This document shows positions 5,000 through 59,424 of a stretch of 64,000 nucleotides of DNA, one piece after another. The position numbers and the translations under genes are program-made. The notes beneath the pieces are model-generated. The model searched no databases. It saw only the letters and a program-made list of their open reading frames with translations, and was not told the DNA's origin. Source of the stretch: Candidatus Baltobacteraceae bacterium (GTDB lineage Bacteria; Vulcanimicrobiota; Vulcanimicrobiia; Vulcanimicrobiales; Vulcanimicrobiaceae); assembly GCA_036488875.1 (NCBI GenBank), contig DASXGW010000002.1, positions 62,001-126,000 on the forward strand, read 5' to 3'. Each line of letters begins with the position of its first letter. Within the stretch, counting starts at the first letter, position 1.

Positions 5000-5052
5000 G
5001 GCGACGCATCGTTTTAAAGGAAATAGCCCGCATCCCTTGTAGGTCTCGCCAC

Positions 5053-6036: not shown

Positions 6037-6040
6037 ACCC

Positions 6041-7480: not shown

Positions 7481-7481
7481 C

Positions 7482-9204: not shown

Positions 9205-9210
9205 CAATAT

Positions 9211-9253
9211 GTGTCATCCTGAGCGTAGTCGCGAAGCGACGAAGTCGAAGGGC
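9211..9253. repeat. Dispersed hairpin repeat (copy 1)
   Basis: The stretch between nadE and the next gene contains GTCGCGAAGCGAC (9228-9240), a perfect 5-bp stem with a GAA loop, followed by GAAGTCGAAGGG. A related GCGAAGCGAC and GAAGTCGAGGGG pair recurs at 22327-22404. It does not code for anything visible and resembles a dispersed intergenic REP-like element. Only two copies are visible here, so the repeat family is inferred. Confidence 0.5.
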
Positions 9254-9261
9254 AGGCGTAT

Positions 9262-43570: not shown

Positions 43571-44353
43571 TTAGAAACACTGTAAGAACTTGCCCGATTT
43601 ATCTTGACCCGCGTGTTGCTTGTCGTAACCGAACACCATGTCGCGGCCGAGTTTGGTTTGGCAGCCGAGATGCGGAGATTCGGCGGAAGCGAAGCGGGGG
43701 CCGAACTCCACCCAGATCGTGTGACCGTCGTCGATGAAAAGGACGCCGTAATTCGTTAGGTCTTTCTGGGCCGCGGGCAGATTACCGATCGAGTTCAGCG
43801 CGCCTTTTGCAAAATCGAAAGCGGCCTGAAGGTCGGCCTCCGGAGCTTGCCCGAACGGCACCGCATCGCCGTGAAATGGACCCCAAACCTTGAACGCCGG
43901 CCGCGCGGCGGACGTCGTCGTCACCGGCTTTTCGTTCGCGATCGGATCGCCATATTCGTACGACCATAGTGCGCCGTCGTCCGAGGCGTCGATCTCGATC
44001 TGATACGAGGCGGCGAAAAGTTTTTCGACCAGCGAAATGTGCATCGGATAACCGAGGGTGTCCAAGGAATGGCGCACGATTTCTACGCCCGCTACAGCGC
44101 CGCCGGTCTCGGGCGAGGGCGACGGCATGTTCAGCGTCTCATTCGTACCGACGACTGCAGGTCCGAAGCGGTATTTGCCGGCAGCGTTTCGATACAGCCA
44201 CACACCGATATCCTGAAACGTGCCGCCCGCATTGATGGCAAGCGCTCGGCCGGCGTTCGAATCGGCCAGAGCTTGGGCGGTCGTGCTTGGACACGCGCTG
44301 CCTAGGAGAACGATCGACAAGGCCGCAGCAAAAACGGTGAAACGATGTCGCAC
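43571..44353 (-). CDS. Secreted hypothetical protein
   Basis: A 260-residue protein with a GTG start preceded by AAGG, and a signal peptide ('FTVFAAALSIVLLGSACPST') with a possible lipoprotein cysteine. The mature part contains 'YPMHISLVEKLFAASYQIEI', 'GVLFIDDGHTIWVEFGPRFA' and two cysteines that could pair. I do not recognise a family. Likely periplasmic. It is convergent with the tRNA pair and separated by a hairpin. Confidence 0.6.
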   Translation of the reverse strand: MRHRFTVFAAALSIVLLGSACPSTTAQALADSNAGRALAINAGGTFQDIGVWLYRNAAGKYRFGPAVVGTNETLNMPSPSPETGGAVAGVEIVRHSLDTLGYPMHISLVEKLFAASYQIEIDASDDGALWSYEYGDPIANEKPVTTTSAARPAFKVWGPFHGDAVPFGQAPEADLQAAFDFAKGALNSIGNLPAAQKDLTNYGVLFIDDGHTIWVEFGPRFASAESPHLGCQTKLGRDMVFGYDKQHAGQDKSGKFLQCF

Positions 44354-44495
44354 GAGATGCCTTCCGAAGGACGATGGCTCGGAGCCGAGGATTTCTGGGG
44401 GTGTGGCGGCTACCCTGGCGAGCAAAACGGCGCGACAGTTGCGACGGGCGACGGGTCATGGTATCGTACGGTGTCGAAAAGCGCTCGACGGCCAT

Positions 44496-45182: not shown

Positions 45183-45312
45183 AACGCCTACTCTACCAAG
45201 CCGCCGCGCGTCCGCGCCATATATACATCGCACTTAGGTGAAGCCTCCGCGGGACTGAAGTCAATTGCGACAAAAGTTAGAGCGACGATCGGATCGCGGT
45301 GTGCGGTCGACA

Positions 45313-45669
45313 CTAAGACTCGACCACGATCGTCAACGTCATGTCGGCGTGCCCGGGACCGCAGAAAACGCGGCAGTGTAAAACGTACGCGCCCGTTTTG
45401 ACGGGTGTGATCGTCACGTCGGTGGTTTGCCCGTCGGAAAGCAGAGTGTGCGTGATGCCGGCGTCGGGCGCGTAGAGTCCGTGGACGCCGCTGACGGAGA
45501 AGCGCAGGGTGGTGGTCTCGCCGGCGTGCAGGACGATGGTATCGGGCGAAAAGGTGCTCGGGATGACCTTGATATCGACGATGCGGACGTCACCGGCGGC
45601 GGCGTGCGCAAAGGAACATAAAAAGATGCCGGCGCCCACAAAGGGCGCGAGGACGCTCCGGAGATTCAT
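45313..45669 (-). CDS. Stand-alone CuA-type cupredoxin
   Basis: A 118-residue protein with a signal peptide and one cupredoxin domain. It has the complete CuA ligand set seen in cytochrome oxidase subunit II: His63 in 'GVHGLYAPDAGI', then C99, C103, H107 and M110 in 'HCRVFCGPGHADM'. It would carry electrons or bind copper in the periplasm. No oxidase subunit I gene is nearby. The ATG at 45669 is preferred over 45693 because a 17-bp regulatory box (45691-45707) then lies exactly 21 bp upstream, as at the response-regulator gene. Confidence 0.82.
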   Translation of the reverse strand: MNLRSVLAPFVGAGIFLCSFAHAAAGDVRIVDIKVIPSTFSPDTIVLHAGETTTLRFSVSGVHGLYAPDAGITHTLLSDGQTTDVTITPVKTGAYVLHCRVFCGPGHADMTLTIVVES

Positions 45670-45690
45670 GAATCGATTCTCGGAAGCATC

Positions 45691-45707
45691 CATGAAGGAA
45701 TCCTGAA
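45691..45707 (-). promoter_or_regulatory. Direct-repeat regulator box 1 (cupredoxin promoter)
   Basis: On the minus strand it reads TTCAGGATTCCTTCATG: two TTCA half-sites 11 bp apart. It is 21 bp from the cupredoxin ATG, with GAGAAT as a possible -10 in between. Confidence 0.55.
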
Positions 45708-45742
45708 TCGACGAGCGTTCCAAGTCTGGAGAACCCATGAAT

Positions 45743-45759
45743 TTCAGAGTTTCTTCACG
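45743..45759 (+). promoter_or_regulatory. Direct-repeat regulator box 2 (regulator promoter)
   Basis: TTCAGAGTTTCTTCACG: TTCA half-sites 11 bp apart, 21 bp before the response-regulator GTG, with TACGGT as a possible -10. Same spacing as box 1. Confidence 0.55.
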
Positions 45760-45780
45760 TCCGCTCGCTACGGTGACGCC

Positions 45781-46449
45781 GTGCAGATCCTACTCGTCGA
45801 GGATCATGCCGCAACCGCGCGAGCGATTCGCTCGATGCTCGAGGGACATATGTTCGCGACGAGCGTTGCGGGAGACGGCCCGGCGGCGCTCGATCAGCTT
45901 CTGCGGCATTCGCACGACGCTGCAATCGTCGACGTTGGGTTGCCCGGCATTGATGGATTCGAGGTCGTAAAACGCGCCCGTAAAGAGGGTGTCGTCATCC
46001 CCATTCTCATGCTGACTGCACGCGACGGTGTCGAGGATCGCGTTCGCGGTTTGGAGTGCGGCGCCGACGATTACTTGATCAAGCCCTTTGCCGAGCACGA
46101 GCTGCTGGCGCGTCTGCGAGCGCTGCTGCGGCGTAGTCACGGCCGGGAAGAGTCAGACGTTCTCGAGATCGGCGAGCTCCGCGTGGACGTTGGAGCGTGT
46201 GCCGCCACGTATGCCGGAGAGCCGTTGGCACTCGGACCGACGGAGTTTCGGCTATTGGAGCTGCTCGCGCGCAACGCCGGCATGACTTTGCCGCGCTCTA
46301 AAATTCTCGAGCGGTTGCGCGAAGAACGGGACGGCGCCAGCAACGTCGTGGACGTGTTCGTGAGCCAGTTGCGCAGTAAGCTTAAACGCAGCGGCGCCGA
46401 CCATCTCATCGAGACGATTTGGAACGTCGGCTACCGCCTGCGCGCGTAG
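45781..46449 (+). CDS. OmpR/PhoB-family response regulator, orphan
   Basis: A 222-residue two-domain regulator. The receiver has the phosphorylated Asp in 'AAIVDVGLPGIDGFEV', Lys in 'ADDYLIKPFAEHE' and Thr in 'LMLTARDG'. The winged-helix DNA-binding domain ends 'LIETIWNVGYRLRA'. It shows closest general likeness to the copper-responsive CusR/CopR type, which is only suggestive. No histidine kinase is adjacent. A 17-bp direct-repeat box occurs before this gene and before two neighbours, suggesting autoregulation. The GTG start may be leaderless. Confidence 0.92.
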   Translation: MQILLVEDHAATARAIRSMLEGHMFATSVAGDGPAALDQLLRHSHDAAIVDVGLPGIDGFEVVKRARKEGVVIPILMLTARDGVEDRVRGLECGADDYLIKPFAEHELLARLRALLRRSHGREESDVLEIGELRVDVGACAATYAGEPLALGPTEFRLLELLARNAGMTLPRSKILERLREERDGASNVVDVFVSQLRSKLKRSGADHLIETIWNVGYRLRA

Positions 46450-46477
46450 CCGCAAGGGTTTCAAGTTCATGAATCCC

Positions 46478-46494
46478 TTCAGACTTTATTCATG
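46478..46494 (+). promoter_or_regulatory. Direct-repeat regulator box 3
   Basis: TTCAGACTTTATTCATG, 14 of 17 bases identical to box 2. A further TTCATGAAT lies at 46466. It precedes the small secreted-protein gene by 54 bp. Confidence 0.55.
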
Positions 46495-46548
46495 ACAAGC
46501 TGGCAAACTCTAGCTCGGAAGCGGCACAAGCATGCCGCTGGAGGTGTG

Positions 46549-46953
46549 ATGAGGACCCGCGCTCTCGTGATTTCGTCGCTTGCCCTGACCCTGTTAATGC
46601 CGGTGACGGCGGCCGCCGATTCCGGTCAGACCGTAGTCGTAACGCTCAACGCGCTCAACGGCAGCGGCGAGAACGGAACGGCGACGCTGCACGCGCAAGG
46701 CAGCAAGACGGTCGTCGTTATCAAGCTTTCTAATGGATCGGGCATCGAGCAGCCCGCGCACTTTCACGTCGGCACGTGCGACAAATATCAGCCGCGTCCG
46801 CTCTATCCGCTCGAAGACGTGGTGAACGGCCAGTCGACGACGACGCTCAGCGTGCCGATCGACAAGCTCACGGGCGGCGACCTTATCGTCAACGTCCACA
46901 AGTCGTACGCCGACATCGCCACGCAAGCGGCCTGCGGAATCTCGAAGTCGTGA
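46549..46953 (+). CDS. Small secreted protein with HxH motif
   Basis: A 134-residue protein with a signal peptide cleaved after 'PVTAAA'. The mature part is beta rich and contains '[20 protein letters not shown]' and a late cysteine in '[10 protein letters not shown]', so one disulfide is possible. The HFH pattern and strand layout recall Cu/Zn superoxide dismutase- or CHRD-like folds, but this is a guess. ATG at 46549 has GGAGG five bases upstream. Its stop overlaps the next gene's GTG. Box 3 upstream suggests control by the response regulator. Confidence 0.6.
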
Positions 46954-49900
46954 ACGTCCTCTCGCGCTTTCGCGTTCCGGTGCAAATCGGGGCCGGGTTT
47001 TTCGTTGGTGTTTTGCTCTTAGGGATTGTGACGGCGCTGGCTATTTCGCGCGTTCACGTGATGCGCGCCCGGTCGGAAGAAGCGGCCGCCCTGAGCGGCA
47101 TCGCAACGTTGACGCGCGACGTGATGGCGCAGATGCTCGATCAATCCGGTGCGGTGCGCGGCTACGTCGCCACCGGCAACCGGCGTTATCTCGATTCGAT
47201 GGGTGCCGCGCAGGCGGCCGTGAGCGCGGATACCGCGAAGCTCGATAAAGTCGATCAGACCAATGCCATCGATTCGGCCCGGCTCGAGCAAGTCGACATC
47301 GAGGCCGCGCAGATCGAGAGCGACATCGATGCGGTGAAGAAGGGATTCGACAAACAGATCGCCGTCGGTCCCGGACGCGGCCCGCAGCCGATTGCGGCGA
47401 TGGACGCCACGCAACGGCTCTTCAAGAATCTGCGACGCGACAACGACGCGCTGCTGACCTATTCGACCACGCAGGCCGGCGTCGCATCCGGGCAGTTCGA
47501 CCGTGCGCAAGTCGAGCTGATGACGGCGCTGTTCGTGAGCACCGTGGCTGCCGTAATCGCGCTGATCTTTACCGCCGTGTTCATCGGCGGGAGCATCGCA
47601 CGCCGCTTGCAGGCCGTGACGCAAGCGCTGCTCGAGGTTACCGAGCAGGACGTTGCACAACTTACCGCGGCGTTCGATCGCCTCAGCGCGGGCGATCTTG
47701 CCGTTAGCTTCGAGTCGGATCGAGCGTTCATCGTCGACGAGGGGAGCGACGAGATCGGTCAGCTCGCGCAGAGCTACAACGGCGTCGCCGCCGGCCTTGG
47801 ACTGATATCGCTGGAGTTCAACAAGATGACCCAGACGCTGCGCGACGTGATGTCGGGCATCGCCGTTGCGACTGACGACCTGGCAAGCTTGAGTTCCCGC
47901 ATGTCGGCAGCCGCGAGCGAATCATCGGTCGCCGTCGATCAGATCGCGGCATCGATCGAGGGCGTAGCCGACGGCGCACGTAACCAAGCCGAACGCATCA
48001 GTGCGGCGCACGGCGAAATCAACGTGCTGACGGCGAGCGCGCAGCAAATCGCTACGGGCTCGAGCGCGCAAGCGCGCGGAGCGATCGAGGCGGTCGAAGC
48101 GGTGCGGCGCCTCGACGAGCAGATCTCCGCGTTCGCGACGCTCGGCACGACGTTAGCCGGCGCTGCGGGACACGCGTCCGACCAAGCGCAAACCGGTGAA
48201 CGGTCGGTGGCGCAGGCCGCGCACGCGATGGAGCGCATCACCGAAGCGACCAACGTGGCGCAGGCGGCCATGAAGAATCTCGAAAGCAGCTCGAGTGCCG
48301 TCTCGGATATCGTCGCGGTGATTCACGACATCGCCGATCAGACGAACTTGCTGGCCCTCAATGCGGCGATCGAAGCGGCCCGCGCCGGCGAGCAAGGTCG
48401 CGGCTTCGCCGTTGTAGCCGACGAAGTACGCAAGCTTGCGGAGAAGTCGCGCATCTCCACCGGAGAGATCAGCCGCATTCTCGACGCGATCCGCGACGAG
48501 AGCGTGCGCGCCGTGGCGGCAATGGCATCGGCCTCGGCGCAAGTGAAGACGGGCACGGCACTGTCGACCGACGCGACCAAAGCACTGGGCGCGCTCGGCG
48601 CCGCGATCTCGCAGACGAGCGACGTCGCCGCCGAGGTGGCGAGCCGTTCGGAGCACATGAAATCCGCTTCGAGCGCGCTGACGCGCAGCATCACCGGCGT
48701 TTCGCGGATCATCGACGACAACGCCGCCGCTGCGGCGCACGTCAACGAACGCAGCGAGCACGTGCAGACGACGATTCATCCAGTCGCCGAGTCGGCCGAC
48801 GCGCAGGCAAAGACCGCGCGCGAAGTTTCCGATGCGACGGGGGTGCTCTCGCAGCAGATGCAAGAGATGAACGACTCGTCGCAGAGCTCGCGCGAACAGT
48901 CGGAACGCCTACGCGAGCTGGTCGGCGTGTTCCGCAACATCGAGATGCCGGCCCTGCGCAGCGCGGTCGTTCGTATCGCGGCAATGGCGGTGCTGGCGTT
49001 GGGCGTGTTTCACCCGCGTCCCGCCGACGCGACGCAGGAGTTTGCACGGCGCACCTTGCTGTCGTGCGGCGCGTGTCACAGCGTGGGCGTAAAGCTCACG
49101 GATTTCGGTAAGGCGTTCAAAGCCGGCGGCTACGTGGTTCCCAAGCTCGTTCCGAACGGTTCGATTCCGGCAACGTTGCAGGCGCAAGCGGCCTATTTCG
49201 GTGACCCCGATCCCACGGGTTTGCCCAAGACGATCGTCGATAAGGTTATCGGGCTGGTCGGGGGGCCGATCGGTCCGCACTTTACCTACGACGGCCAGCA
49301 GTATTTCATGGATGGCGGCGTGGTGGGCGATTTGCGCGAAGCGTGGGTGGAATACACGTCGAACTGGACCGACAAAATTCCGGTCGATTTTCGCGTCGGC
49401 CAGCAAGTCATGCCGCTGCCGACCGATCCCCAGCGCTTTAAGCTGAGCGAACAAGATTACGGCGTCGCCGTGCAAACCGTCGGAGACAATCCGTTCAATC
49501 TCTACGAGCCGATGGACGGTCTGCGACTGTCGCTAGGAAAGGAAGTCAGCGGCTTCAACGCATCGATTCTGGCGTTTAGCAATCACGATCAAGGATCGCC
49601 GATCCAGCAGACCGGCACGGATTGGATGTTCGTGGGTCGCGAAACGTTCCGGCACGCGGATTTCGAGGTGTACCGGTACACCGGGCGCCGAGCAGTCGGT
49701 CCGGAGGATCAGTTTTGGCGTCAAGGGTACGGCGCCAACTATTATACCGGCCGCTTGACGGTGCACACCGCGCTGCAGGTCGGCAACGATACGAATCCGC
49801 TCGGCATCGGACAAGCGGTGGTTTCGAGCGGCGGTTACGTTGAGGGGCAGTATCAAATCGGGCGATCGATCTTCGCGTACGCGCGTGAGGACGGCGTTAA

Positions 49901-50078
49901 CGACACGGCCGGCGGATTCGGACGAGACTTCGTCTATGGGACGAGCATCTTTATCGGCCGCCCGTTCAAACTGCAGCTCGAGGACGTTGTCACGACGGCC
50001 GGCCAAACGCACAACTCGCTCGCGATCATCTTCGGTATCGGGATTAGCACGATTCACAACGGCTCGGCTTCGTACTAA
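46950..50078 (+). CDS. Chemoreceptor fused to Cyc2-like cytochrome-porin
   Basis: One open frame of 1042 residues. Residues 9-33 and about 190-214 are membrane helices around a periplasmic helical sensor. A HAMP-like region follows, then a full MCP signalling domain with the tip '[19 protein letters not shown]' (about residue 463). The MCP ends normally at 'LRELVGVFR'. Three codons later Met666 (48945) begins a typical signal peptide with a cleavage-like ADA site, then '[20 protein letters not shown]' (one CxxCH heme c site, C706-H710) and about 330 residues of alternating beta pattern ending in aromatic Tyr. The C-terminal part resembles Cyc2-type monoheme cytochrome-porins that oxidise iron at the outer membrane. 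Confidence 0.85.
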
Positions 50079-50079
50079 C

Positions 50080-50097
50080 CGGGCACTTCATTGCCCG
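50080..50097 (+). other. Intergenic hairpin before the pilin gene
   Basis: CGGGCA-CTTCAT-TGCCCG forms a 6-bp stem without a T tail, between the receptor-cytochrome gene and the pilin gene. It could be an mRNA processing or stability element. Confidence 0.35.
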
Positions 50098-50113
50098 TGG
50101 AGGGTGATGAAGC

Positions 50114-50572
50114 GTGCCAGATCGCAAGCATTTAGCGTCCCAACGAGGGTTTACCCTGATCGAAATGATGATCGTCGTGGCGATCATTGCGATTCTGGTG
50201 AGCATCTTAGTCCCGAATTTCATTCGCGCGAGGGCGCAAGCGCAGACCGCAGCGTGCGAGGCGAATCTCAAGGAAATCGCGACGGCACTCGAGCTGTACG
50301 AAACCGATAACGAGAAATATCCCGCGAGCGGTACGGTTAACGCGAGCAACACGGATCTGCAACCCTATCTGAAGCAAACGCCGGTCGATCCTGCCGCGGG
50401 TCCTAGCGCGTACTACACGTTTACCGTGACCGGATCCGGTGCGTCGACGGCGACGTATACGATCGTTTGCCCCGGCGTGCACGATCCCGGCACGTTACAG
50501 AACATTACGCCGAACACGACGCTCACCCACATTCAGTACACGTCGGCCGCAGGGTTTTCGGCGGCGAACTGA
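50114..50572 (+). CDS. Type IV pilin / pseudopilin
   Basis: A 152-residue prepilin. A short basic leader precedes the cleavage/N-methylation site 'RGFTLIEMMIVVAIIAILVS' (cut after Gly12). The long hydrophobic helix is followed by 'RAQAQTAACEANLKEIATAL', as in major pilins and GspG-like pseudopilins, and a C-terminal globular part with two cysteines. GTG start with GGAGGG eight bases upstream. It begins the pilus part of the cluster; a prepilin peptidase is encoded 1.2 kb downstream. Confidence 0.9.
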   Translation: MPDRKHLASQRGFTLIEMMIVVAIIAILVSILVPNFIRARAQAQTAACEANLKEIATALELYETDNEKYPASGTVNASNTDLQPYLKQTPVDPAAGPSAYYTFTVTGSGASTATYTIVCPGVHDPGTLQNITPNTTLTHIQYTSAAGFSAAN

Positions 50573-50585
50573 CGTGGTGGACGTT

Positions 50586-51230
50586 ATGAGCGCCGCACTG
50601 CGCGACGCGGGCAGCGCATCGGTCGCCGCGCCGGCGCTTGCGTTCGCGGCGGGAACCGCATCCAGTTTCGGCCCGTGCATCGGTCCGCGAATACTGACGC
50701 TCGCGGCGCTGTGCTCGCGGCACCGAGGCGCGGCGCGTTGGATTGCCGCTGGAATCTTTGCCACCGGACTGTGTGCCGGCTACGCCATCGTCGCTACAGT
50801 TGCGGGTGCGGCAGGCTTGGCGTCCGCGCTGTCGCCGTCGATCTATCGAATCTTGGCGATCGCCGCTGCGGCCGGCGGCGTCTGGACGCTCGTACGCGGG
50901 CCGCAACGGGCTTGTTGCCGCGGCGAAGGCCGAGTTAACGGCGGTGTGGGATTCTTTGCCGGCTTAGTGTCGGCGAGCGTAACGTCGCCGTGCTGCGGTC
51001 CGATCGGTGCCGCGTTGGCGGGCGTCGCGGCCGCGGCGGCCGGTCCCAGATACGCAGCAGCGATCGCCGGCGCGTTCGCGCTGGGTCACGCTTTACCGCT
51101 GGTGGCGGTTGCAGCCGGCTCGATGCGGTTCGGCGGCGCCGTCACGCGAGCGGTCGAAAGCGGCGCGGGCGTAACGATTTCGGGCGCCCTGATGCTTGCG
51201 ACCGGTACGTATTACGCGGTGCTCGCGTGA
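50586..51230 (+). CDS. CcdA/DsbD-like transmembrane thiol transporter
   Basis: A 214-residue membrane protein with about six helices. It has internal symmetry and paired cysteine motifs 'SSFGPCIGPRILTL' and 'SVTSPCCGPIGAALAG', typical of CcdA, which passes reducing power across the inner membrane for cytochrome c maturation or disulfide repair. It could serve the CxxCH heme site encoded just upstream; this is inferred from position. The ATG at 50586 is chosen; GTG codons at 50574 and 50577 are alternatives. Confidence 0.75.
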   Translation: MSAALRDAGSASVAAPALAFAAGTASSFGPCIGPRILTLAALCSRHRGAARWIAAGIFATGLCAGYAIVATVAGAAGLASALSPSIYRILAIAAAAGGVWTLVRGPQRACCRGEGRVNGGVGFFAGLVSASVTSPCCGPIGAALAGVAAAAAGPRYAAAIAGAFALGHALPLVAVAAGSMRFGGAVTRAVESGAGVTISGALMLATGTYYAVLA

Positions 51231-51763
51231 GGGAGATTCCGGCGGCGCGGCGCATGGCGCTGGCACTCACCGGCATCGTCCTTTCCGGTTACTTGGTGCG
51301 TCCGCAGATTTCCCAAGCGCTCGTGATACGCGGCGACGAGCGGCTTTATCGCGGCAGCGCAAGGGAGGCGCTCGGGTATTACAAGCGCGGGATCGACGCG
51401 GATCCGCTCAACGCCTCCGCAGTCGATCGGTTCGCCTTCGGCGCGGTGAGCCTTCGGGAAAAAACGGTCGTTCGCGAAGCGATCGCGGCGTCGTCAGCGT
51501 ACCTTCGCCGGCGTCCGGCCGACGACGTCGTGCGCATGGATCGCGCGATGGCGTTTCGGTTGCTGGGCGATTGGCGCCACGCTGCGACAGACTTCGAGCG
51601 CGTTGGCGAACGGGAACGCGACGCGACGGCGCTGACCTTTGCCGGTTATGCCGCCGACAAGCTCCACGAGCATCGCCGCGCGCGTGCCTTATGGCGCAAA
51701 GCGCTGACCGTCGATCGTAACTTTCGCGCCGCGCTTCACGCGCTTGGGAGTAACGCGTCGTGA
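51227..51763 (+). CDS. TPR membrane-anchored protein
   Basis: A 178-residue protein with an N-terminal membrane segment ('MALALTGIVLSGYLV') followed by TPR-like helices ('ERLYRGSAREALGYYKRGID', 'RAMAFRLLGDWRHAATDFER', 'HRRARALWRKALTVDRNFRA'). It may play the part of the PilF/PilW pilotin or another pilus assembly scaffold, but the match is only to the repeat class. GTG start overlapping the CcdA-like gene by 4 bp. Confidence 0.65.
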   Translation: MREIPAARRMALALTGIVLSGYLVRPQISQALVIRGDERLYRGSAREALGYYKRGIDADPLNASAVDRFAFGAVSLREKTVVREAIAASSAYLRRRPADDVVRMDRAMAFRLLGDWRHAATDFERVGERERDATALTFAGYAADKLHEHRRARALWRKALTVDRNFRAALHALGSNAS

Positions 51764-52362
51764 GCGTCGTTGCGGCGTCCCTCGAGACCGTTTTAACACT
51801 GAGCGTTCTGGCGGCAATCGCTTATGAAAGGATGCACGCGAACGGCTTGAAAGCGCGGGTGCTCGACGCTCGTGCGATGACGATAGCGGTCGCGGCGACG
51901 CTCGCACGCGGCTGGTTGGCCCGGCGCGGCGTCGGTGGAATCGAGACGTCGATCGCCTTCGGTATCGCCGCCGTTGCCGCAATTACCGATCTCCACTGCG
52001 GATATGTGTTCGACCGCGTACTGCTCGCCGGGAGCGTTGCGTTGATGGCCGCGGAGGCGGCGCACGGAAGGCTGAGTTTTGCGCTGGAAGGCGGTGCGGT
52101 CGCGGCGGCGGCGCTTGCCGTGCCGTGGGCGGTGACCCGCGCGCGCGGTCTGGGGTTTGGCGATGTAAAGCTCGCGGGCGTCCTGGGTTGTGCGCTCGGA
52201 CCGTACGACGCGATGCGGGCACTGTGGTTCGCGTTTGTGATCGGAGCGCTCGTCGCGGTTGCGTGCATCGTGACGCGCCGCCGCTCGCGCGGTGACGCGA
52301 TGCCGTTCGCGCCGTTCGTCGCACTGGGGGCGGTGATGTCGGCGGGAAGCGCGGCGTGGTGA
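51760..52362 (+). CDS. Minimal prepilin peptidase (A24 family)
   Basis: A 200-residue polytopic protein with both catalytic aspartates of type IV prepilin peptidases: 'AITDLHCGYVFDRVL' and 'GLGFGDVKLAGVLG' (GxGDxK). It lacks the N-terminal zinc/methyltransferase domain of full PilD, so it would cleave but not N-methylate, as in CpaA/TadV-type enzymes. It would process the pilin encoded upstream. Overlaps both neighbours by 4-7 bp. Confidence 0.82.
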   Translation: MSVVAASLETVLTLSVLAAIAYERMHANGLKARVLDARAMTIAVAATLARGWLARRGVGGIETSIAFGIAAVAAITDLHCGYVFDRVLLAGSVALMAAEAAHGRLSFALEGGAVAAAALAVPWAVTRARGLGFGDVKLAGVLGCALGPYDAMRALWFAFVIGALVAVACIVTRRRSRGDAMPFAPFVALGAVMSAGSAAW

Positions 52363-53303
52363 AAATGCGGTCGATTCCGTTGGGCGTCGATATCGGCAAG
52401 ACGCGGATACGCGTCGCCGCGGCCGTCCGAGCGGCGTCGGGAGCCGTGGAGCTCGTCGGCGTCGCGTCGCGCGAGGCGCCGGACGAGCCCGAAGCAGCGG
52501 CGACGGTTCTCGACGATCTTCGTCGCGAGCTCGGAACGCGCGAGCGCCGCTGCGTGTTGTCACTGCCGGCCAGCGCCGGCGTGCTAAAGGTCTTGCGCTT
52601 TCCGAAGATGAGCGATGCCGAGCGTCGCAACGCGGCGCTCTTTGAGTCCGAGCGTATCGTTTCGTGGAACTCCAAGGAGATCGCCACCGTGGTTCGCGCG
52701 CATTGGGTGAACGTGCGTGACGGGCTCGTTGCAATCGGCGTCGCGCGCGAGGAGGCGCTGCGCGCGCGGGTTGCGTGTGCCCGTCGGGCCGGGTTGTCGG
52801 TTGCCGGCGTCGATCACGATGCGTGCGCGATGCGCCGAGCGTTTCCGTTCGCCGATGCAGTGCTCGACGTCGGATGCGAATCGTCGAGCTTGCACGTCTT
52901 CTCAGCGTCGGGCCCGCTGTCGGTGACCATTCCGGCGGGCGGCGCGGAGGTGACGGCCGGCATCTGCCGCGATCTCGGGATCGATTCCACCGCGGCCGAG
53001 CGCCGAAAGCGCATCTTGGGAACCGCGGGCGCCGGCGAGGGAGCGCGCGACGCGTTCGTCGCACGCGTCGCCGCAACGATTCACGACGTGCGCGAACGCC
53101 ACCCCGTTCGCCGTCTTGCCATGACGGGAAACGGCGCGCGTTTGCCGGGACTTGCGGAGTTCGTCGAAGCCGCGGTCGGGGCGATGGTGGACGTCCCCGT
53201 CAGCGACTTACTGCGCGTTGCCGCGTATCCCGATGACGTCGCGCGCTCGGCCGCTCCGGATTGGACGCTCGCAGCGTCGCTTGCCGCATGGGAAACACCG
53301 TGA
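52356..53303 (+). CDS. pilM: Type IV pilus assembly ATPase-like protein PilM
   Basis: A 315-residue actin-like fold protein. It has 'LGVDIGKTRIRVAAAV' (phosphate-1 loop), 'ADAVLDVGCESSSLHVFS' and 'RRLAMTGNGARLPGLAEFVE', as in PilM/GspL cytoplasmic components. It would bind the N-terminus of PilN on the inner side of the membrane. GTG start overlaps the peptidase gene; ATG at 52365 is an alternative. First gene of a pilMNOPQ-like series. Confidence 0.85.
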   Translation: MVKMRSIPLGVDIGKTRIRVAAAVRAASGAVELVGVASREAPDEPEAAATVLDDLRRELGTRERRCVLSLPASAGVLKVLRFPKMSDAERRNAALFESERIVSWNSKEIATVVRAHWVNVRDGLVAIGVAREEALRARVACARRAGLSVAGVDHDACAMRRAFPFADAVLDVGCESSSLHVFSASGPLSVTIPAGGAEVTAGICRDLGIDSTAAERRKRILGTAGAGEGARDAFVARVAATIHDVRERHPVRRLAMTGNGARLPGLAEFVEAAVGAMVDVPVSDLLRVAAYPDDVARSAAPDWTLAASLAAWETP

Positions 53304-53848
53304 TTCGCTTCGACTACCTGCACGACCCGCCGTCGCGGTTATGGGGAACCATCCGTACCGCGCGGTTGCCGCGGCGACTTCACAACCTCACCGTGGCGTT
53401 CGCCGCGGTTGCGGTGCTGCTCGGCGGCGCGGCGGCGATCGAACGGGGACGCGTGCGGGAAGCGCAACGCGTACGAGCTGAGGCGCAAGACCGCTTCGAA
53501 CGCAGCCGTGCGGATCTCGAGCGATTTCGTCTACAGTGGCGTCAAATCGACGACCTGATCGCCGAGGATCGAAGATTGCGCGAGATTCGGCTTTCCGGAA
53601 GCCGCGTGGCCGAGCGACTGGCCGCGATCGGCGATCGGTTCCCAAACGGCGTAAGCATCGATTCGCTCCGAGCCGCGGGCGAAGAGTACGCCGTTAAAGG
53701 GAAGGCTCCGACCATCGACGCGGTGAGCGGCGTGTTGAGCCGAATCGTCGCGAGTAGCGCGCTGCCGCATCCCGGTATCGTCCGCATTGCGAAGGATTCC
53801 GGCGTTCTCGCAGGCTTCACGTTCGAGTTCAGCGCGGGTGCTCCGTGA
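53288..53848 (+). CDS. pilN: PilN-like pilus assembly protein
   Basis: A 186-residue bitopic membrane protein: a short cytoplasmic N-terminus, one helix at about residues 40-58, a coiled coil ('EAQDRFERSRADLERFRLQW') and a ferredoxin-like C-terminus ('VAERLAAIGDRFPNGVSIDS'). PilN joins PilM to PilO. ATG at 53288 overlaps pilM by 16 bp; a GTG at 53300 that overlaps the pilM stop (GTGA) is an equally good start. Confidence 0.78.
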   Translation: MGNTVIRFDYLHDPPSRLWGTIRTARLPRRLHNLTVAFAAVAVLLGGAAAIERGRVREAQRVRAEAQDRFERSRADLERFRLQWRQIDDLIAEDRRLREIRLSGSRVAERLAAIGDRFPNGVSIDSLRAAGEEYAVKGKAPTIDAVSGVLSRIVASSALPHPGIVRIAKDSGVLAGFTFEFSAGAP

Positions 53849-54414
53849 AGGCTGCATGGCTTGCAGTTCTCGCGTTGGCGATCGCCGGCTATGCCGGCGT
53901 CGTCGCGCCGGCCGAACGCACCGTTCGATCGCTGACGCGCGAAAGCCAAGATCTCTACGAACTGGCAAACCGCAACGAGGCGGTGCTTCGGCAGCGCGCG
54001 TCGCTGGTGCGCCTGCGCGACCGCGTTCGACGGGATTTGGACGGTTTGGGCGCGGAGAATACGCCGGCTAAAGCCGCGTTAGCGCTTATCGAACTGCTCG
54101 ATCGAGTGGGAAAAGAGCGTGACGTAGCCGTCGGCACGTTCGCGCCGGACGAAACGGCTGAAAGCGGCGATGCGCAGCAAATCTCGCTCGCGATTCACGG
54201 CTCGTATGAAGCGGTGCTGCCGTTTCTGAGCGATTTGACGCGCCACCGTCCGTTGGTGGAAGTCGAGAGCGCGGAGCTGCAGCGGCAATCCGATACGAGC
54301 GATGGTTCCGAAATCGACGGCCAGGTTCGCGTGGTGCTGTATCATACGGCAGCCGGTTTCATTCACACGATTTCGACGGAGGTGCATCCGCATGATACGA
54401 CCGCTCACGACTAA
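53845..54414 (+). CDS. pilO: PilO-like pilus assembly protein
   Basis: A 189-residue protein with an N-terminal membrane helix, a coiled-coil ('SLTRESQDLYELANRNEAVL') and a small ferredoxin-like domain ('ISLAIHGSYEAVLPFLSDLT'). It would form heterodimers with PilN in the inner-membrane platform. GTG start overlapping pilN by 4 bp. Confidence 0.75.
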   Translation: MKAAWLAVLALAIAGYAGVVAPAERTVRSLTRESQDLYELANRNEAVLRQRASLVRLRDRVRRDLDGLGAENTPAKAALALIELLDRVGKERDVAVGTFAPDETAESGDAQQISLAIHGSYEAVLPFLSDLTRHRPLVEVESAELQRQSDTSDGSEIDGQVRVVLYHTAAGFIHTISTEVHPHDTTAHD

Positions 54415-54868
54415 TCAGCGACGCAGCATCGCGCGCAGCTCGCTGGCGGGCTGCATCGTTTCGTTGCTGCTGCTTCCACTGGCCGTGCCGCCAAGCACGT
54501 CGGCCGGCACTACGACCGGCATCGCCGCAGCGTGGCGCGAGCTGCCTTCGATTCCGCCGCCGCTGAGCTATCCGGCGCTTACGATTCGCCACAATCCGTT
54601 CGTGCGACCGCTGCCGCCGATTGCCGGCGACGACGACGCCTTGCCGCCCGACTTGGTCCTGCCGCCGAACGCGGGGATCGCCTCGCCGCCGCGCGTGCAG
54701 GCCCTGATCTTGGGTGCCGTGCCCAAAGCGCTCGTGGAGGTCGAGGGCCACACTGCGATCGTCGGTGTCGGAACGAAGCTCGAAGGGTCGGCGATCGTGC
54801 GAATCGACTCACGCGGACTCGAGCTCGATAACGGCGAGCGGCTGGAACTCGAAGGGCGGCGTCCGTGA
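54392..54868 (+). CDS. PilP-like periplasmic protein
   Basis: A 158-residue protein with a signal-anchor ('SLAGCIVSLLLLPLAVPP') and a proline-rich linker. A small beta domain follows, with 'RVQALILGAVPKALVEVEGH' and 'DSRGLELDNGERLELEGRR', as in PilP/GspC homology regions that link the platform to the secretin. Sequence conservation is weak and the call rests mainly on position between pilO and pilQ. Confidence 0.6.
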   Translation: MIRPLTTNQRRSIARSSLAGCIVSLLLLPLAVPPSTSAGTTTGIAAAWRELPSIPPPLSYPALTIRHNPFVRPLPPIAGDDDALPPDLVLPPNAGIASPPRVQALILGAVPKALVEVEGHTAIVGVGTKLEGSAIVRIDSRGLELDNGERLELEGRRP

Positions 54869-56223
54869 CATATTCCCGCATGGTGCCGATGCTGCTGCTG
54901 GCGGTTCTCTTGTGCGCGGCCGTCGAACGCAGCGCAATAACGATCGACGCTCACGACGTCGACATTAGCGACGTGATTTCGTTGTTAGCGGCGGAGTCAG
55001 GCGTGAACTTGGTCACGGATCGATCGGTCAAACCAGAACGCATCACGGTACACTTGCACGACGTCAGTTTCGAGGAGGCACTGCAGGCGATTACCGTCGC
55101 GCACGGGCTGTCGGTGCGCCGCGAAGGCTCGATTCTCATCGTCGCGAGTGGCCAGTCTCAGAGTACCGCGAACGCTACCGCGGTTTTTGCACTGCACCAC
55201 GCGGAGCCCGAAGACGTGGCGCGCGAGCTCACCGCGGTTCTGCCGCAAGGAACCGTCGTGGTTCCCGACAAGCGCACGGGCGCGCTCTTCGTCGGCGGCG
55301 ACGCGTCGGTCGCGAGCCGTGCGCGCACGCTGGTTGGCGCGTTGGATTCCGCGCGGTTATCGGAGGCGGGCGGCTCGCGAACCACATCGTATCCTCTGCG
55401 GTACCTACGGCCCGATGATGCCGTCGCCAAGCTCAAGGCGCTGTTGCCCGACGGCAACGTGCTCGCCGACGAGGAGCAGAACGCGGTGCTGGTGTCGGGC
55501 GGGGAGCGCGTGCAGTCGGTTGCCAGGGGATTGCTCGCGCAGATCGACGTCGCAAGCCCGCAGGTCCTGTTCGAGGTCAAAGTCGCCGACCTGACGCCCG
55601 TGAACGACTCGAGCAACGTCGGTTTCGAGTTCGGTGGGTTGGATCTGACCGGCCAGCCGCTTCCGGGTGCGGCGACCTATGCCTTTACGACGGGAACGAT
55701 ACCGGTCAACGCCCGCCTGAACTTGCTGGTGAGCAAAGGCCACGCGCAGATTCTGGCGACACCGAAGCTCGTGACGATTAACAACAAGGAAGCGAATCTC
55801 ATGATCGGAGAGACCTACCCGATCGTCTATAGTACCTCGGTACTCGGTGGACAAAACGTGCAATACGTGGATATCGGGGTTCATCTTCGCTTGACGCCGA
55901 CTATCGGCTCCGACGGCAGCGTCACGGCGGACCTCCATCCGGAGTACAGCGAGCTCGTCGGCTTTACGTCGACCGGCTATCCGATCGTCGCCAATCGAAA
56001 GATCGATTCGACATTGCGGGTCCAAGACGGTTCCACGATCGTGCTCGGCGGCCTCATGCGCGACACAAGCAGTGAGACCATCGATAAGGTTCCGGGCCTC
56101 GGCGATATTCCGATTATCGGCGGTTTGTTCAAGAACAAGCAAACCAATCACGAACGCGACGAGATCGTATTCTTGATTACGCCGCACGTTATCTATCCAG
56201 GCAGCACCCCACCGGCTAAGTAG
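54865..56223 (+). CDS. pilQ: PilQ-like secretin
   Basis: A 452-residue outer-membrane secretin. It has a signal peptide, an STN/N0 domain ('ITIDAHDVDISDVISLLAAE'), two NolW-like modules ('ATAVFALHHAEPEDVAREL', 'TSYPLRYLRPDDAVAKLKAL') and the C-terminal secretin domain with 'SSETIDKVPGLGDIPIIGGL'. It is shorter than proteobacterial PilQ because AMIN domains are absent. It implies an outer membrane. GTG start. No pilB, pilT or pilC lies in the window. Confidence 0.9.
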   Translation: MTYSRMVPMLLLAVLLCAAVERSAITIDAHDVDISDVISLLAAESGVNLVTDRSVKPERITVHLHDVSFEEALQAITVAHGLSVRREGSILIVASGQSQSTANATAVFALHHAEPEDVARELTAVLPQGTVVVPDKRTGALFVGGDASVASRARTLVGALDSARLSEAGGSRTTSYPLRYLRPDDAVAKLKALLPDGNVLADEEQNAVLVSGGERVQSVARGLLAQIDVASPQVLFEVKVADLTPVNDSSNVGFEFGGLDLTGQPLPGAATYAFTTGTIPVNARLNLLVSKGHAQILATPKLVTINNKEANLMIGETYPIVYSTSVLGGQNVQYVDIGVHLRLTPTIGSDGSVTADLHPEYSELVGFTSTGYPIVANRKIDSTLRVQDGSTIVLGGLMRDTSSETIDKVPGLGDIPIIGGLFKNKQTNHERDEIVFLITPHVIYPGSTPPAK

Positions 56224-56272
56224 AAGGGAAGCGCACCAGGAGAGGTCTTCGCAGTACTGAAAGCCTCAACGC

Positions 56273-57601
56273 ATGGGAACTTCTTTGAAGATGGGCGGGC
56301 GAAGCTATTTCTACGCCGCGCGCGTCGCCGTCGCGAGCGTGATCGGCACGTCGATCGAGTGGTACGATTTCTTCATTTTCGGACTTTCGGCGGCGCTGGT
56401 ATTCCCCACGCTCTTTTTTCCAAAGGCCGATCCGCTCGCGGGGTTGCTCGCCTCGTATGTGATCTTCTGGGTTGGATTTTTAGGACGCCCCCTCGGGGGC
56501 GTCATTTTCGGTCACTTCGGGGATCGTCTCGGACGCAGAACGATGCTCGTCATTACTCTGACGACGATGGGCGTAGCGACCTGTGCGATTGGATTGCTGC
56601 CCACACAATCGAAAATCGGCGATTTGGCGCCGGTGCTGCTGCTGATTCTGCGACTGCTACAAGGTGCGGCGATCGGCGGCGAATGGGGCGGTGCCGTATT
56701 GATGGCGACCGAGCATGCGCCGGATCGGTCGCGCGGTTTCTTTGGCAGTCTGCCGCAGATTGGCGTGCCGATTGGCTTGATTCTTTCAAACCTGGTCTAT
56801 CGCACGGTGGCGGGACACGGAGAAGCTGCGCTGCTCGCCTTTGGCTGGCGCGTGCCGTTTCTCTTCAGCATCGTTTTGGTGGTCGTTGGTTTGCTCGTCC
56901 GGCTCAGCGTCGACGAGACTCCGGCGTTCAAGCGCGTGCGCGATCGCGCGGAACTGGTAAAGGCACCTATACTTACCGTGCTTACGCGCGACTGGAAACC
57001 GGTCCTGATCGGGAGCGCCATCTTCTTGGTCGTCAACGGCGGATTCTATTTGCGCGCCGTGCAGATATTCAGCTATGCCGCCGGTCCACATTCGACATTG
57101 AAGATCGATCCGAGCGTCATCCTTAACGCGCTCATCGTGGGCGGCTGCTTTGCTCTCCTCGCACTGCCGGCATCGGGATATCTTGCCGATCGCTTCGGCC
57201 GCCGTCCGGTTTGCCTGGCTGGCGCGGTGCTAAGCATAGCGCTCGCGTTTCCGACGTACTCGCTCATCGACACACGTAATCCACTGCTGATAGCCGCGGG
57301 GCTCGCGCTTTGGGAATGCGTCTCGGCGCTCATCGCCGGTCCTCTGCCCGCGCTCTTGTGCGAGCTGTTTCCGAGCAACGTGCGGTACACCGGAGCGTCG
57401 CTGAGCTATCAGTTCGTCTCGATCGTCGGCGGCGGTCTTGCTCCGTTCATCGCCACCGCACTGCTCTCGCTTTCCGGTGGCAGTTCCTGGGTGCTTGCAC
57501 TCTATGTCATGCTCATGGCAGTGATCTCCACAATCGGTGTGCTACTCCTACCGGAGACACGCGAGGTCGCGCTGCTGCCCGCGTTTAATGCGCCATCATG
57601 A
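56273..57601 (+). CDS. MHS-family (MFS) metabolite:proton symporter
   Basis: A 442-residue transporter with 12 predicted helices. The MHS subfamily signature is clear: 'SVIGTSIEWYDFFIFGLSAA', 'GRPLGGVIFGHFGDRLGRRT' and 'LRLLQGAAIGGEWGGAVLMA'. Relatives take up dicarboxylates, proline or betaine. The substrate is not predictable. Its stop overlaps the next gene (ATGA), suggesting a functional link with the sensor-like protein. Confidence 0.9.
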   Translation: MGTSLKMGGRSYFYAARVAVASVIGTSIEWYDFFIFGLSAALVFPTLFFPKADPLAGLLASYVIFWVGFLGRPLGGVIFGHFGDRLGRRTMLVITLTTMGVATCAIGLLPTQSKIGDLAPVLLLILRLLQGAAIGGEWGGAVLMATEHAPDRSRGFFGSLPQIGVPIGLILSNLVYRTVAGHGEAALLAFGWRVPFLFSIVLVVVGLLVRLSVDETPAFKRVRDRAELVKAPILTVLTRDWKPVLIGSAIFLVVNGGFYLRAVQIFSYAAGPHSTLKIDPSVILNALIVGGCFALLALPASGYLADRFGRRPVCLAGAVLSIALAFPTYSLIDTRNPLLIAAGLALWECVSALIAGPLPALLCELFPSNVRYTGASLSYQFVSIVGGGLAPFIATALLSLSGGSSWVLALYVMLMAVISTIGVLLLPETREVALLPAFNAPS

Positions 57602-59424
57602 AGCCCGCTACTTGGCGCGCGATCCTTTTAACGTGCTGTGCTTTCGGGGCGCTCTTGGTGGTTGTGGACTTTTGGAATCAGGCCGGCATCGGCGGTCAGC
57701 CGTGGTACGGTCTATTGGGCGCGTACGTCTCCGGTTCGTCGGAGCCGTGGCACGTTTCCATTCGCGGAATCGATCCCGGTGGGCCGGCCGATCGCGCGGC
57801 TATTCGCGAGGGAGACACGGTCGACGTGCGCGATGCGAGCGTGCTCTTGCGCGTGTCGCTCTTGGGACAGTTCATGGCGAACCGTCCCGTTACGCTGCGC
57901 GTAGAAAACGCCCACGGAAGCGCAGGGCGAACGCTGATTCCGAGAACGTTTTCGATGTTCCGGTTTTGGCAATACGTCGTCTGGGAGCTCGGGTGCTTAT
58001 GGCTGCTGCTCTTTGCGGCGTTGATTGCATGGCGCCGCCCATACGTCGATAATAATCTGCTCCTTTCGACGGTTCTGGTAGCTGCAGCAATCGGAAGCAG
58101 CGCGTCGCTGTTGTTTTCTGCGTGGCCTTGGCCCTGGCCGTACGTGGTCCTTTCGCTAATCGGACAGGCGGAGCCGTTGTCGATTGCGCTCTGGGCTACG
58201 TTGGCTAGTGCTTTTGCGCGGCCGCTCTCACCGGTGCGCCGGCTCGTGCTCGCGCTTACGTATGTAGCCGTCGGAGTCTGGATTCTCTTTGGAAACGGAA
58301 CTCCCGACCGCGCCCCAGGAATGGCATCGCTTACTGGAATGCTCACGCTGTGGTTCGATCCGACCTTCTTCATCGGTCCAGCGTGGATTCTGACCGTTGC
58401 TACGGGGGTTCTCATCGCCGTCGCGTGCAGCGTTTTAGCGATTGTTGCAAGCCGGGGAGTCGAACGGCAACGGGCTGGGTGGTTGCTCGTACCTTGCACG
58501 ATGCTTTTTTGTACCGGCACCTTAACGCTATTTGCCTTCCATTTCCTGTCCTACTCAAGCATCCTCGAGGCAGGGTACGCCAATAGCATAATCACGATCT
58601 GCGCACCGCTAGTTTTGACATACGCGGCACTGAATCGCAGATTGATCGACGTCGGATTCGTGCTCAATCGGACCGTGGTCTTTGCGATTGTCTCGTCGAT
58701 CGTTATCGGCACGTTCATCCTAGTCGAGTGGGCGGCCGGTGAGTGGCTCGTAAACGCCAACCACGTAACCAGCGCGGTCGTCGGTATGGTGGTAGCGCTG
58801 GCGCTGGGCTTGTCGATGCGATATATCCATCGCTACGTCGACCGGTTCGTTGACAACATCCTGTTTCGCAAGCGCCACGAGTCCGAGACGGCGCTGCGCC
58901 GTTTTGCCCACGAGGCCGCCTACATCAACGAACCCGCAGTGCTCTTAGAACGTACGCTCAAGACGGTGCGCGATCACACGACCGCGGAGAGTTCCTACAT
59001 CGTACTGCGTAACGGTTCGGCGGCATATTCATCGGCTTCCGAGCCGCGTGCAGAGATCAGTGAGAACGATCCGGCGATCGTCGAGTTAAAAGCCTGGAGC
59101 AAGCCGGTTGACCTGCACGCCGTTACCGGCTCGCACCTTCACGGGGAGCTGGCATTTCCAATGGCGTCGCGCGGCCAGCTCGTCGGCGCGCTCGTATGCG
59201 GTCCAAAGCGCGACGGCGAAGCCTATGCGCCGGATGAAACCGAAGCCCTCGCTGCATTGGCGCACGGCGTCGGCAGTGCGCTCGACGTGCTCGAAGCGCG
59301 CGAAGGACAGCCGAGCGGGAACGTCATGGCCGATCTCGCCCAATCGGTTCGCGAGCTGTCGGAGATTACGCGGAGCTTACCCGATGCGCTCGCCAAAATA
59401 GTCCAAGAACGAGCTGCCAGATAA
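57598..59424 (+). CDS. PDZ-membrane-GAF sensor-like protein without kinase
   Basis: A 608-residue protein: one N-terminal helix, an extracytoplasmic PDZ-like domain ('IRGIDPGGPADRAAIREGDT', about residues 54-100), seven to eight membrane helices (about 120-400), a linker helix and a GAF-like domain ('EPAVLLERTLKTVRDHTTAE', 'GELAFPMASRGQLVGALVCG'). The layout is that of a histidine kinase sensor, but it ends without HisKA or ATPase domains. It may regulate the overlapping transporter or pass signals to another protein. Its 3' end overlaps the convergent gene by 59 bp. Confidence 0.75.
   Translation: MKPATWRAILLTCCAFGALLVVVDFWNQAGIGGQPWYGLLGAYVSGSSEPWHVSIRGIDPGGPADRAAIREGDTVDVRDASVLLRVSLLGQFMANRPVTLRVENAHGSAGRTLIPRTFSMFRFWQYVVWELGCLWLLLFAALIAWRRPYVDNNLLLSTVLVAAAIGSSASLLFSAWPWPWPYVVLSLIGQAEPLSIALWATLASAFARPLSPVRRLVLALTYVAVGVWILFGNGTPDRAPGMASLTGMLTLWFDPTFFIGPAWILTVATGVLIAVACSVLAIVASRGVERQRAGWLLVPCTMLFCTGTLTLFAFHFLSYSSILEAGYANSIITICAPLVLTYAALNRRLIDVGFVLNRTVVFAIVSSIVIGTFILVEWAAGEWLVNANHVTSAVVGMVVALALGLSMRYIHRYVDRFVDNILFRKRHESETALRRFAHEAAYINEPAVLLERTLKTVRDHTTAESSYIVLRNGSAAYSSASEPRAEISENDPAIVELKAWSKPVDLHAVTGSHLHGELAFPMASRGQLVGALVCGPKRDGEAYAPDETEALAALAHGVGSALDVLEAREGQPSGNVMADLAQSVRELSEITRSLPDALAKIVQERAAR

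Follow-up and report, generated by a model that had tools for sequence, protein, structure and literature searches.

We have analysed a 64,000-nucleotide window (positions 62001-126000 of contig C2 in genome G000) that lies inside a 3.7-Mb metagenome-assembled genome (MAG) of a Candidatus Baltobacteraceae bacterium. Positions 45313-56223 of this window hold a dense block of redox, chemoreceptor and type IV pilus genes, which an initial annotation had proposed to be one surface electron-transfer, taxis and pilus system. Our finding is that the block consists of two separate genetic modules that abut: a pilus operon (module A, 50114-56223) and a redox/receptor unit (module B, about 45313-50078). 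Comparisons were made with G001, which together with G000 represents the genus of the window (g1), and with other genera of the same family, one of which is termed g9 here.

Layout of the locus and the predicted regulator boxes

All genes named in the initial annotation are present in the order it gave, as judged from Pfam and NCBIfam matches, open reading frames (ORFs) and reading of the sequence. The cluster is more than chance, because the genes from a response regulator (RR) to PilQ have their counterparts, gene for gene, in G001. The order RR, HxH protein, receptor/porin and pilin through pilQ is repeated there (stretches L034 and L057) with no intervening gene, and among the pil loci compared G001 is the only genome besides G000 to show it. 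Eight of the ten junctions from the HxH gene to PilQ overlap, in agreement with the earlier count when the starts used here are taken; the exceptions are porin/pilin (35 nt) and pilin/CcdA-like gene (13 nt). Conservation of the entire block in relatives, which had been proposed as a check, holds in G001 from the RR to PilQ, but not for the cupredoxin, which is found elsewhere, nor in other genera, where the redox genes were not found at the pil loci compared.

Module B opens on the minus strand with a CuA-type cupredoxin that is probably secreted (45313-45669). A start at 45669, with the signal-peptide-like sequence MNLRS, is likelier than the listed one at 45738. The protein matches Pfam Cupredoxin_1 (PF13473), with weak CoxB/NosZ matches, and its ligands, read from the sequence as CRVFCGPGHADM, have the spacing CxxxCxxxHxxM, which we take to be the CuA ligand motif. 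No cupredoxin was found at this place in G001, where an HD-domain gene stands; at other places G001 has cupredoxins related to that of the window, with identities of up to 45%, and related ones occur elsewhere in 81 of 98 genomes. In one g9 genome, G129, the HxH gene is preceded by genes for a CuA-like cupredoxin and for another cytochrome-porin-like protein. A palindrome near the cupredoxin start, GATTCATGAATC, was dropped as a candidate element because it was not found in L034.

All features that follow are on the plus strand. The RR (45781-46449) belongs to the OmpR family, with receiver and Trans_reg_C domains, and is an orphan as annotated, there being no adjacent kinase. Next comes the HxH protein (46549-46953), which has a signal-peptide-like N terminus and in which HxH, NVHxS and two cysteines are invariant across 26 aligned members. 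The window protein itself has no Pfam match to Cu-Zn superoxide dismutase (SOD) or CHRD; among the aligned members at E<=1, 17 of 26 match CHRD (best 9.2e-08) and 2 of 26 match Sod_Cu (best 0.0012), so that weak profile matches of its homologues tentatively suggest a CHRD/Cu-Zn-SOD-like protein. A search with the HxH profile returned weak matches only, four of them to SOD chains (E 0.47 to 1.1) and one to a methyltransferase (E 0.39); neither the HxH protein nor the cytochrome-porin gave a usable match when its sequence was searched against the PDB, and structure prediction of the HxH protein from a two-row alignment reached a pLDDT of 52.

Comparison of the regions upstream of the RR and HxH genes in G000 and G001 yielded a candidate regulator box, TTCAGANNNTNTTCA (TTCA-N7-TTCA). 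It occurs twice in the window (none in shuffles), before the RR gene (45743-45757) and before the HxH gene (46478-46492), and six times in each g1 genome, with counts of 0 and 0 for the reversed-pattern control. Sites before four genes are kept in both g1 genomes, namely those for the RR, the HxH protein, a high-potential iron-sulfur protein (HiPIP) and a predicted lipoprotein. The HiPIP site lies 23-24 nt upstream of a 90-aa gene (contig C10 of G000, C203 of G001) whose products exceed the PF01355 cut-off of 22 bits (24.5 and 24.0 bits). The lipoprotein site lies 58 or 54 nt upstream of its gene, which encodes 374 aa on contig C4 of G000 and runs off contig C20 in G001. Two extra sites in G000 stand before genes for a 213-aa protein and a polyketide-cyclase-like protein, and two in G001 lie around and in the HD gene. 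Among 288 loci, the box was found outside g1 in two settings: close to an RR of G006 that is 54% identical (L091), and adjoining the porin of the g9 genome G133 (L140 and L164, which are one place).

We read these boxes as sites of the adjacent RR. That they instead belong to another regulator, or are a promoter element, is the alternative that survives best, although we still give it clearly the smaller chance. The motif was defined after the fact, once four sites had been seen, and it stands just 23-24 nt before the start codons of the RR and HiPIP genes, which is close for an activator site; furthermore, for two of the six G000 sites G001 has no corresponding site. These points weigh against the regulon as we propose it. 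OmpR-family regulators, however, have 11-nt direct repeats, and the box repeats with that spacing; sites flank the RR gene on both sides in both g1 genomes, and one copy lies near the 54% identical regulator in G006. The RR is also 62% identical to a regulator on C4, next to which genes for SCO1, a plastocyanin-like protein, a cytochrome-porin and a kinase are found. This C4 kinase may drive the orphan RR; the exact box was not found at the C4 regulator locus.

Pilus operon and redox unit

Module A represents the type IV pilus operon that is usual in the family. It encodes a type IV pilin with two conserved cysteines, C36 and that of CPG (50114-50572), a CcdA/DsbD_TM-like protein with cysteines in GPC and CC (50586-51230), an adjoining tetratricopeptide-repeat (TPR) protein with a hydrophobic N terminus (51227-51763), a prepilin peptidase with an A24 domain (51760-52362), PilM (52356-53303), PilN (53300-53848), PilO (53845-54414; T2SSM_b over cut-off, the PilO model below it at 18.9 of 22 bits), a PilP-like protein (54392-54868; named by position only, with no Pfam or NCBIfam match) and the PilQ secretin (54865-56223). 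The pilin, the A24 peptidase, PilM, PilN, PilO and PilQ identify the operon, and its motor genes stand elsewhere in the genome. As annotated, pilB and pilT are absent from the window, the T2SSE matches of the genome being at C2:319-321k and on C4. The search of the rest of the genome that the annotation had called for placed PilB, PilT and PilC on C2, about 200 kb from the window, with one copy of pilC beside PilB/PilT; no genome-wide PilC search was made.

Type IV pili have been described in Vulcanimicrobium, and module A is alike in pilin, prepilin peptidase and PilM-Q as far as the available text of that report goes (PMC9758169). It differs from a standard pilMNOPQ operon in the CcdA-like and TPR genes that follow the pilin, and in that 40 of 58 loci of the family (among L058-L076 and L207-L245) have a sigma-70-family gene ahead of the pilin. 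In G000 the sigma-factor gene adjoins pilC instead (L128:5510-6079).

The separation of the two modules is carried by other genera. HxH, methyl-accepting chemotaxis protein (MCP) and cytochrome-porin genes were found in none of 59 pil loci outside g1 (E 1e-3, over the stretches compared). These loci come from two sets, 19 out of 20 from the first and 40 from the second, and the G027 locus is represented by two copies; L213 has no pilin, and for eight of the other 58, with less than 3 kb upstream of the pilin (20 nt in L217), the test is partial. Five of the 59 have an RR match somewhere, never as a block with other module B genes. In six g9 genomes (G042, G129, G131, G133, G134 and G053) the pil operon and module B, the latter whole or in part, are located at different places or on different contigs. 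Relatives with pil genes and no redox block, which the initial annotation had itself counted as evidence against a single system, are thus what the 59 loci represent, and its inclusion of the pili in the redox system finds no support in them or in the six g9 genomes that carry both sets apart.

The module boundary itself bears a GGGCACT element (50081-50087), between porin and pilin. GGGCA[CT] is seen upstream of many pilins of the family, occurring within 120 nt before the pilin in 37 of 58 loci (mononucleotide shuffles: mean 5.4, maximum 14), and it is kept in both g1 genomes. Against a strict division stands the fact that module B directly precedes the pilin in both g1 genomes, at 35 nt in G000 and 60 nt in G001, and that no terminator-like site was found at the boundary in the window scan, the G001 gap having been read by eye. 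Because the modules abut in both genomes and no such site was found in the window, some co-transcription by read-through is plausible in g1. Scans of 45200-56400 for sigma-70 promoters and terminators gave no excess over shuffles. Upstream of the pilin there is a hairpin with a more favourable fold than shuffled sequences (z -2.6), but it lacks a T run, and we draw no claim from it.

One could go further and suppose that in g1 the block is one long operon whose products work together as an integrated surface electron-transfer, taxis and pilus system. The identical gene order in both g1 genomes, with no gene between the modules, and the boundary without a detected terminator-like site would suit this idea. 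We nevertheless consider it improbable, as the redox genes were found at none of the 59 other pil loci compared, both sets, whole or in part, lie apart in six g9 genomes, the family's pilin-associated element is kept between porin and pilin, cheA stands near flhA, and G001 has no cupredoxin at this place. The redox reading as such fares better: a redox/receptor module exists, the predicted box links the HiPIP gene to it, and a CuA-like cupredoxin recurs in a g9 genome; what falls away is the use of CcdA as evidence for cytochrome maturation. The HiPIP link and the recurring cupredoxin strengthen the redox reading, and not the single-system one.

Receptor and cytochrome-porin in one reading frame

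The last gene of module B is a single ORF of 1042 aa (46950-50078) that encodes a chemoreceptor (46950-48944), a predicted internal signal peptide (48945-49031) and a Cyc2-like cytochrome-porin (49032-50078). The chemoreceptor is an MCP, with CHASE3, HAMP and MCPsignal domains over the Pfam cut-offs, two hydrophobic segments (residues 7-38 and 187-218 in G000) flanking CHASE3 as TM1 and TM2, and a place among MCPs in the tree given below. A third hydrophobic segment (668-689 in G000, at about 666-689 in both genomes) is followed by an AxA site, in HPRPADA of G000 or HPRPASA of G001, and then by TQEFARRT, an arrangement that by eye and hydropathy resembles a signal peptide.

The fusion proteins of G000 and G001 have 1042 aa each, are 76% identical and align without gap or stop. 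Differences are most numerous at the third codon position, and this holds at the junction too, where a block of 40 codons has 10, 10 and 20 differences at codon positions 1, 2 and 3. Among the matches listed from 99 family genomes, only these two have the porin in an ORF of more than 1000 residues that covers the junction. In g9 the MCP and porin genes are unfused, with an overlap of 4 nt in G042, G129 and G133 and of 1 nt in G131. If the stop in such an overlap were lost, a fused gene would result.

Receptor and porin are probably made as a polyprotein that is cut at the internal signal peptide, because an outer-membrane barrel could hardly stay tied by a three-residue spacer. This polyprotein is the most surprising part of the locus. 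An uncut chain, by which one receptor would be tied to its own heme porin, would agree with the uninterrupted ORF in both g1 genomes, but it appears distinctly unlikely: the three residues between the AxA site and FARRT would be too short to span the periplasm, and the separate g9 genes need no tether. That the fusion arose as an artefact of sequencing or assembly, or reflects a lost stop that is rarely read through, is highly improbable, for although no other porin lies in such an ORF among those matches and g9 has two genes, two MAGs with 76% identical proteins share the same gap-free fusion with coding-type substitutions across the junction.

In the FbcH cytochrome b/c1 polyprotein, two membrane proteins are made as one chain and parted at an internal signal peptide. 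The chain described here is alike in joining two membrane proteins through an internal signal peptide, at which it would be cut, and differs in that the partners are a chemoreceptor and a cytochrome-porin. No report of a chemoreceptor-cytochrome-porin fusion was found in the open-access literature, as far as its available texts extend.

Cyc2 is a fused cytochrome-porin and iron oxidase with the motifs AxPxFAR[QK][TY], CxxCH and PxL and a 16-stranded porin, according to the accessible part of its description (PMC8406198). The window porin resembles Cyc2 as described there (PMC8406198) in its signal peptide, one CxxCH near the N terminus (CGACH), a porin-length part of about 330 residues and a terminal aromatic residue (Tyr). 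CxxCH is present in 40 of 42 family rows, the other two being wrong-frame. The protein departs from Cyc2 in lacking the P of AxPxFAR[QK][TY], with R in place of Q/K, and in having VKL (AKL in G001) rather than PxL four residues after CxxCH. P-x-FAR-[QK]-[TY] occurs in 2 of 42 family rows; PxL occurs in 32 of 42, comprising none of the eight module porins and all 32 other readable ones. Further differences from Cyc2 are the module-specific clade, a barrel that is putative, and the shared chain with a chemoreceptor. Because two Cyc2 sequence features are missing, we do not file the porin as Cyc2, although it may work like a Cyc2-type protein. Cyc2-like genes have already been reported in Eremiobacterota, in the portion of that report available to us (PMC8357290). 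Two points tell against a firm outer-membrane assignment: the barrel rests on family resemblance and on C-terminal aromatic residues (34 of 42 rows), and structure prediction of the porin from a two-row alignment gave a pLDDT of 28.

Distribution and phylogeny treat module B as a unit of its own. HxH, MCP and porin occur together as separate genes in three g9 genomes (G042, G129 and G133), MCP and porin stand on a short contig of G131, and in G060 a contig breaks off after HxH and the beginning of an MCP gene. In a tree of 40 rows the eight module porins group as a single clade apart from the 32 others (99/96), the rows having been taken from tblastn matches to the window porin with E up to 1e-20, of which 2 of 42 were dropped as wrong-frame reads. 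Seven module MCPs likewise form one clade among 16 rows (99/98), the comparison MCPs being those from an earlier search. Less tidy are the g9 loci with HxH and porin but no MCP (G134 and a second locus of G133) and with HxH and MCP but no porin (G053), which count against strict inheritance of the set. As judged from gene order and trees, module B is a redox/receptor unit in which HxH, MCP and cytochrome-porin are co-inherited.

Further cytochrome-porins were observed at two places. In L165 of G134 (8006-10705), a standalone-type (plus strand) and a module-type (minus strand) cytochrome-porin adjoin, the module-type one behind HxH. Stretch L175 (G000:C4:38000-56000) holds at about 2300-11000 a second cytochrome-porin with a plastocyanin-like protein, SCO1, a response regulator and a histidine kinase, as well as UbiD-like and UbiA-like genes seen by eye. 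Elsewhere in the window, a 608-aa protein with weak C-terminal GAF matches is encoded after an MFS transporter (57598-59424), and a 284-aa ORF on the minus strand (43571-44425) has no Pfam or NCBIfam match.

The CcdA-like protein and a possible redox taxis

The CcdA-like gene of module A follows the cysteines of the pilin. In a count of 59 pilin rows from 58 genomes (G027 twice, G001 included and G000 not), all 53 rows with the Cys36 and CPG pair (24 genera) have the CcdA-like gene in the locus, and all six rows with no such pair (six genera, one clade) have none; these six pilins keep two other cysteines near the C terminus. G034, which likewise shows no CcdA, was left out because a pilin is missing from its locus and its PilQ is a fragment on a long branch. 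Because the six genera form one clade (100/100) inside the others in the PilQ tree, the covariation suggests one joint loss, a single phylogenetic event, and is suggestive rather than proof. It could not be extended to the family f3 (L247-L260, L273 and L274), because the conserved cysteines of the f3 CcdA-like proteins are replaced (SPSS, PDAT) and a search of the surrounding 1.5 kb or so revealed no pilin motif (35 of 37 genomes outside the family searched).

The window protein stays below the Pfam DsbD_TM cut-off (16.1 and 17.3 of 27.1 bits), and a pil-operon relative in G011 exceeds it at 59.8 bits. The cysteines of GPC, near the start, and CC, in the middle of the membrane domain, are invariant in 17 of 17 CcdA-like rows. 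One locus, L240, has the CcdA-like gene and no TPR match was found there. The pilus proteins are distinct from a second set of matches in the same genomes, the G000 copy of which lies at C12:93872 (DsbD_TM, 67 bits). The initial annotation had read CcdA as a pointer to cytochrome maturation, and a role in maturing cytochrome c for the heme porin would suit a CcdA/DsbD_TM-like protein near a c-type cytochrome gene. We judge that role very unlikely: the gene also belongs to pil operons for which the search detected no cytochrome-porin, it tracks the pilin cysteine pair, as far as a suggestive covariation allows, and the separate ccdA is at hand.

In a better-known case, the disulfide-bearing ComGC pilin has the BdbDC oxidoreductases as thiol-redox partner. 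The likeness is that of a pilin with a thiol-redox partner, where the pilin disulfide would be predicted from the cysteine pair; the difference is that the partner here is CcdA-like and encoded beside the pilin. No report of a pilus-linked CcdA was found in the open-access literature, again as far as its available texts extend.

Taken as a whole, two abutting modules, an RR-box regulon, a cut receptor-porin chain and redox taxis offer the best explanation of the locus, and one that we hold to be likely. The RR would bind the TTCA-N7-TTCA boxes and control itself, the HxH-MCP-cytochrome-porin genes, the HiPIP, the predicted lipoprotein and perhaps others. MCP and cytochrome-porin would be translated as one chain, as the open frame in two genomes indicates, and signal peptidase would cut at HPRPA[DS]A|TQE, whereupon the receptor would stay in the inner membrane and the one-heme porin go to the outer membrane. 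There the porin may exchange electrons with something outside the cell, and the HxH protein, HiPIP and CuA protein may carry electrons or metal in the periplasm. In the abutting operon, the CcdA-like thiol transporter and the TPR protein would serve the two-cysteine pilin. The receptor would inform the single CheA of the cell about the state of the chain, and flagellar energy or redox taxis would follow. A CheW-domain search found one CheA and one CheW in the genome, both on contig C10, beside CheC, a CheY-like protein and FlhA; the absence of cheA and cheW from the window is thereby confirmed. It speaks against this proposal that the putative redox input to CHASE3 is deduced from gene neighbours.

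A bolder version, which we offer as doubtful, is that the locus makes a receptor and a dedicated sensing Cyc2-like porin 1:1 from a polyprotein that parts itself. The heme site of this porin, altered and lacking PxL, would read the redox state of an extracellular electron donor, electrons would pass via HxH, CuA and HiPIP, the receptor would turn their flow into taxis, and one RR would set the level of the chain. If true, extracellular electron transfer would here have a sense organ of its own, built into the system.

Several known systems offer partial parallels. The PioABC and Iro HiPIP chains of iron oxidation combine an outer-membrane cytochrome conduit with a periplasmic HiPIP (available text of PMC10654088); here the porin has a single heme, and the HiPIP gene is unlinked and tied by the predicted box only. 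The esn chemosensory network of Geobacter ties MCP signalling to extracellular electron transfer, with EsnA lacking a putative periplasmic domain and no cytochrome-porin fusion found in the available portion of that report (PMC5585712). Heme-motif MCPs of Gallionellaceae are included in a table of c-type cytochromes, and no porin fusion was found in the part of that paper at hand (PMC10734462).

Little is settled about the way in which bacteria perceive extracellular electron donors or acceptors and travel toward them. The receptor described here, linked genetically to a one-heme porin and in g1 sharing a reading frame with it, is a concrete candidate for such sensing, and it comes with six predicted box sites, including one at the HiPIP promoter. 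The presence or absence of the CcdA-like protein with the pilin cysteine pair, in turn, makes redox control of pilus assembly directly testable.

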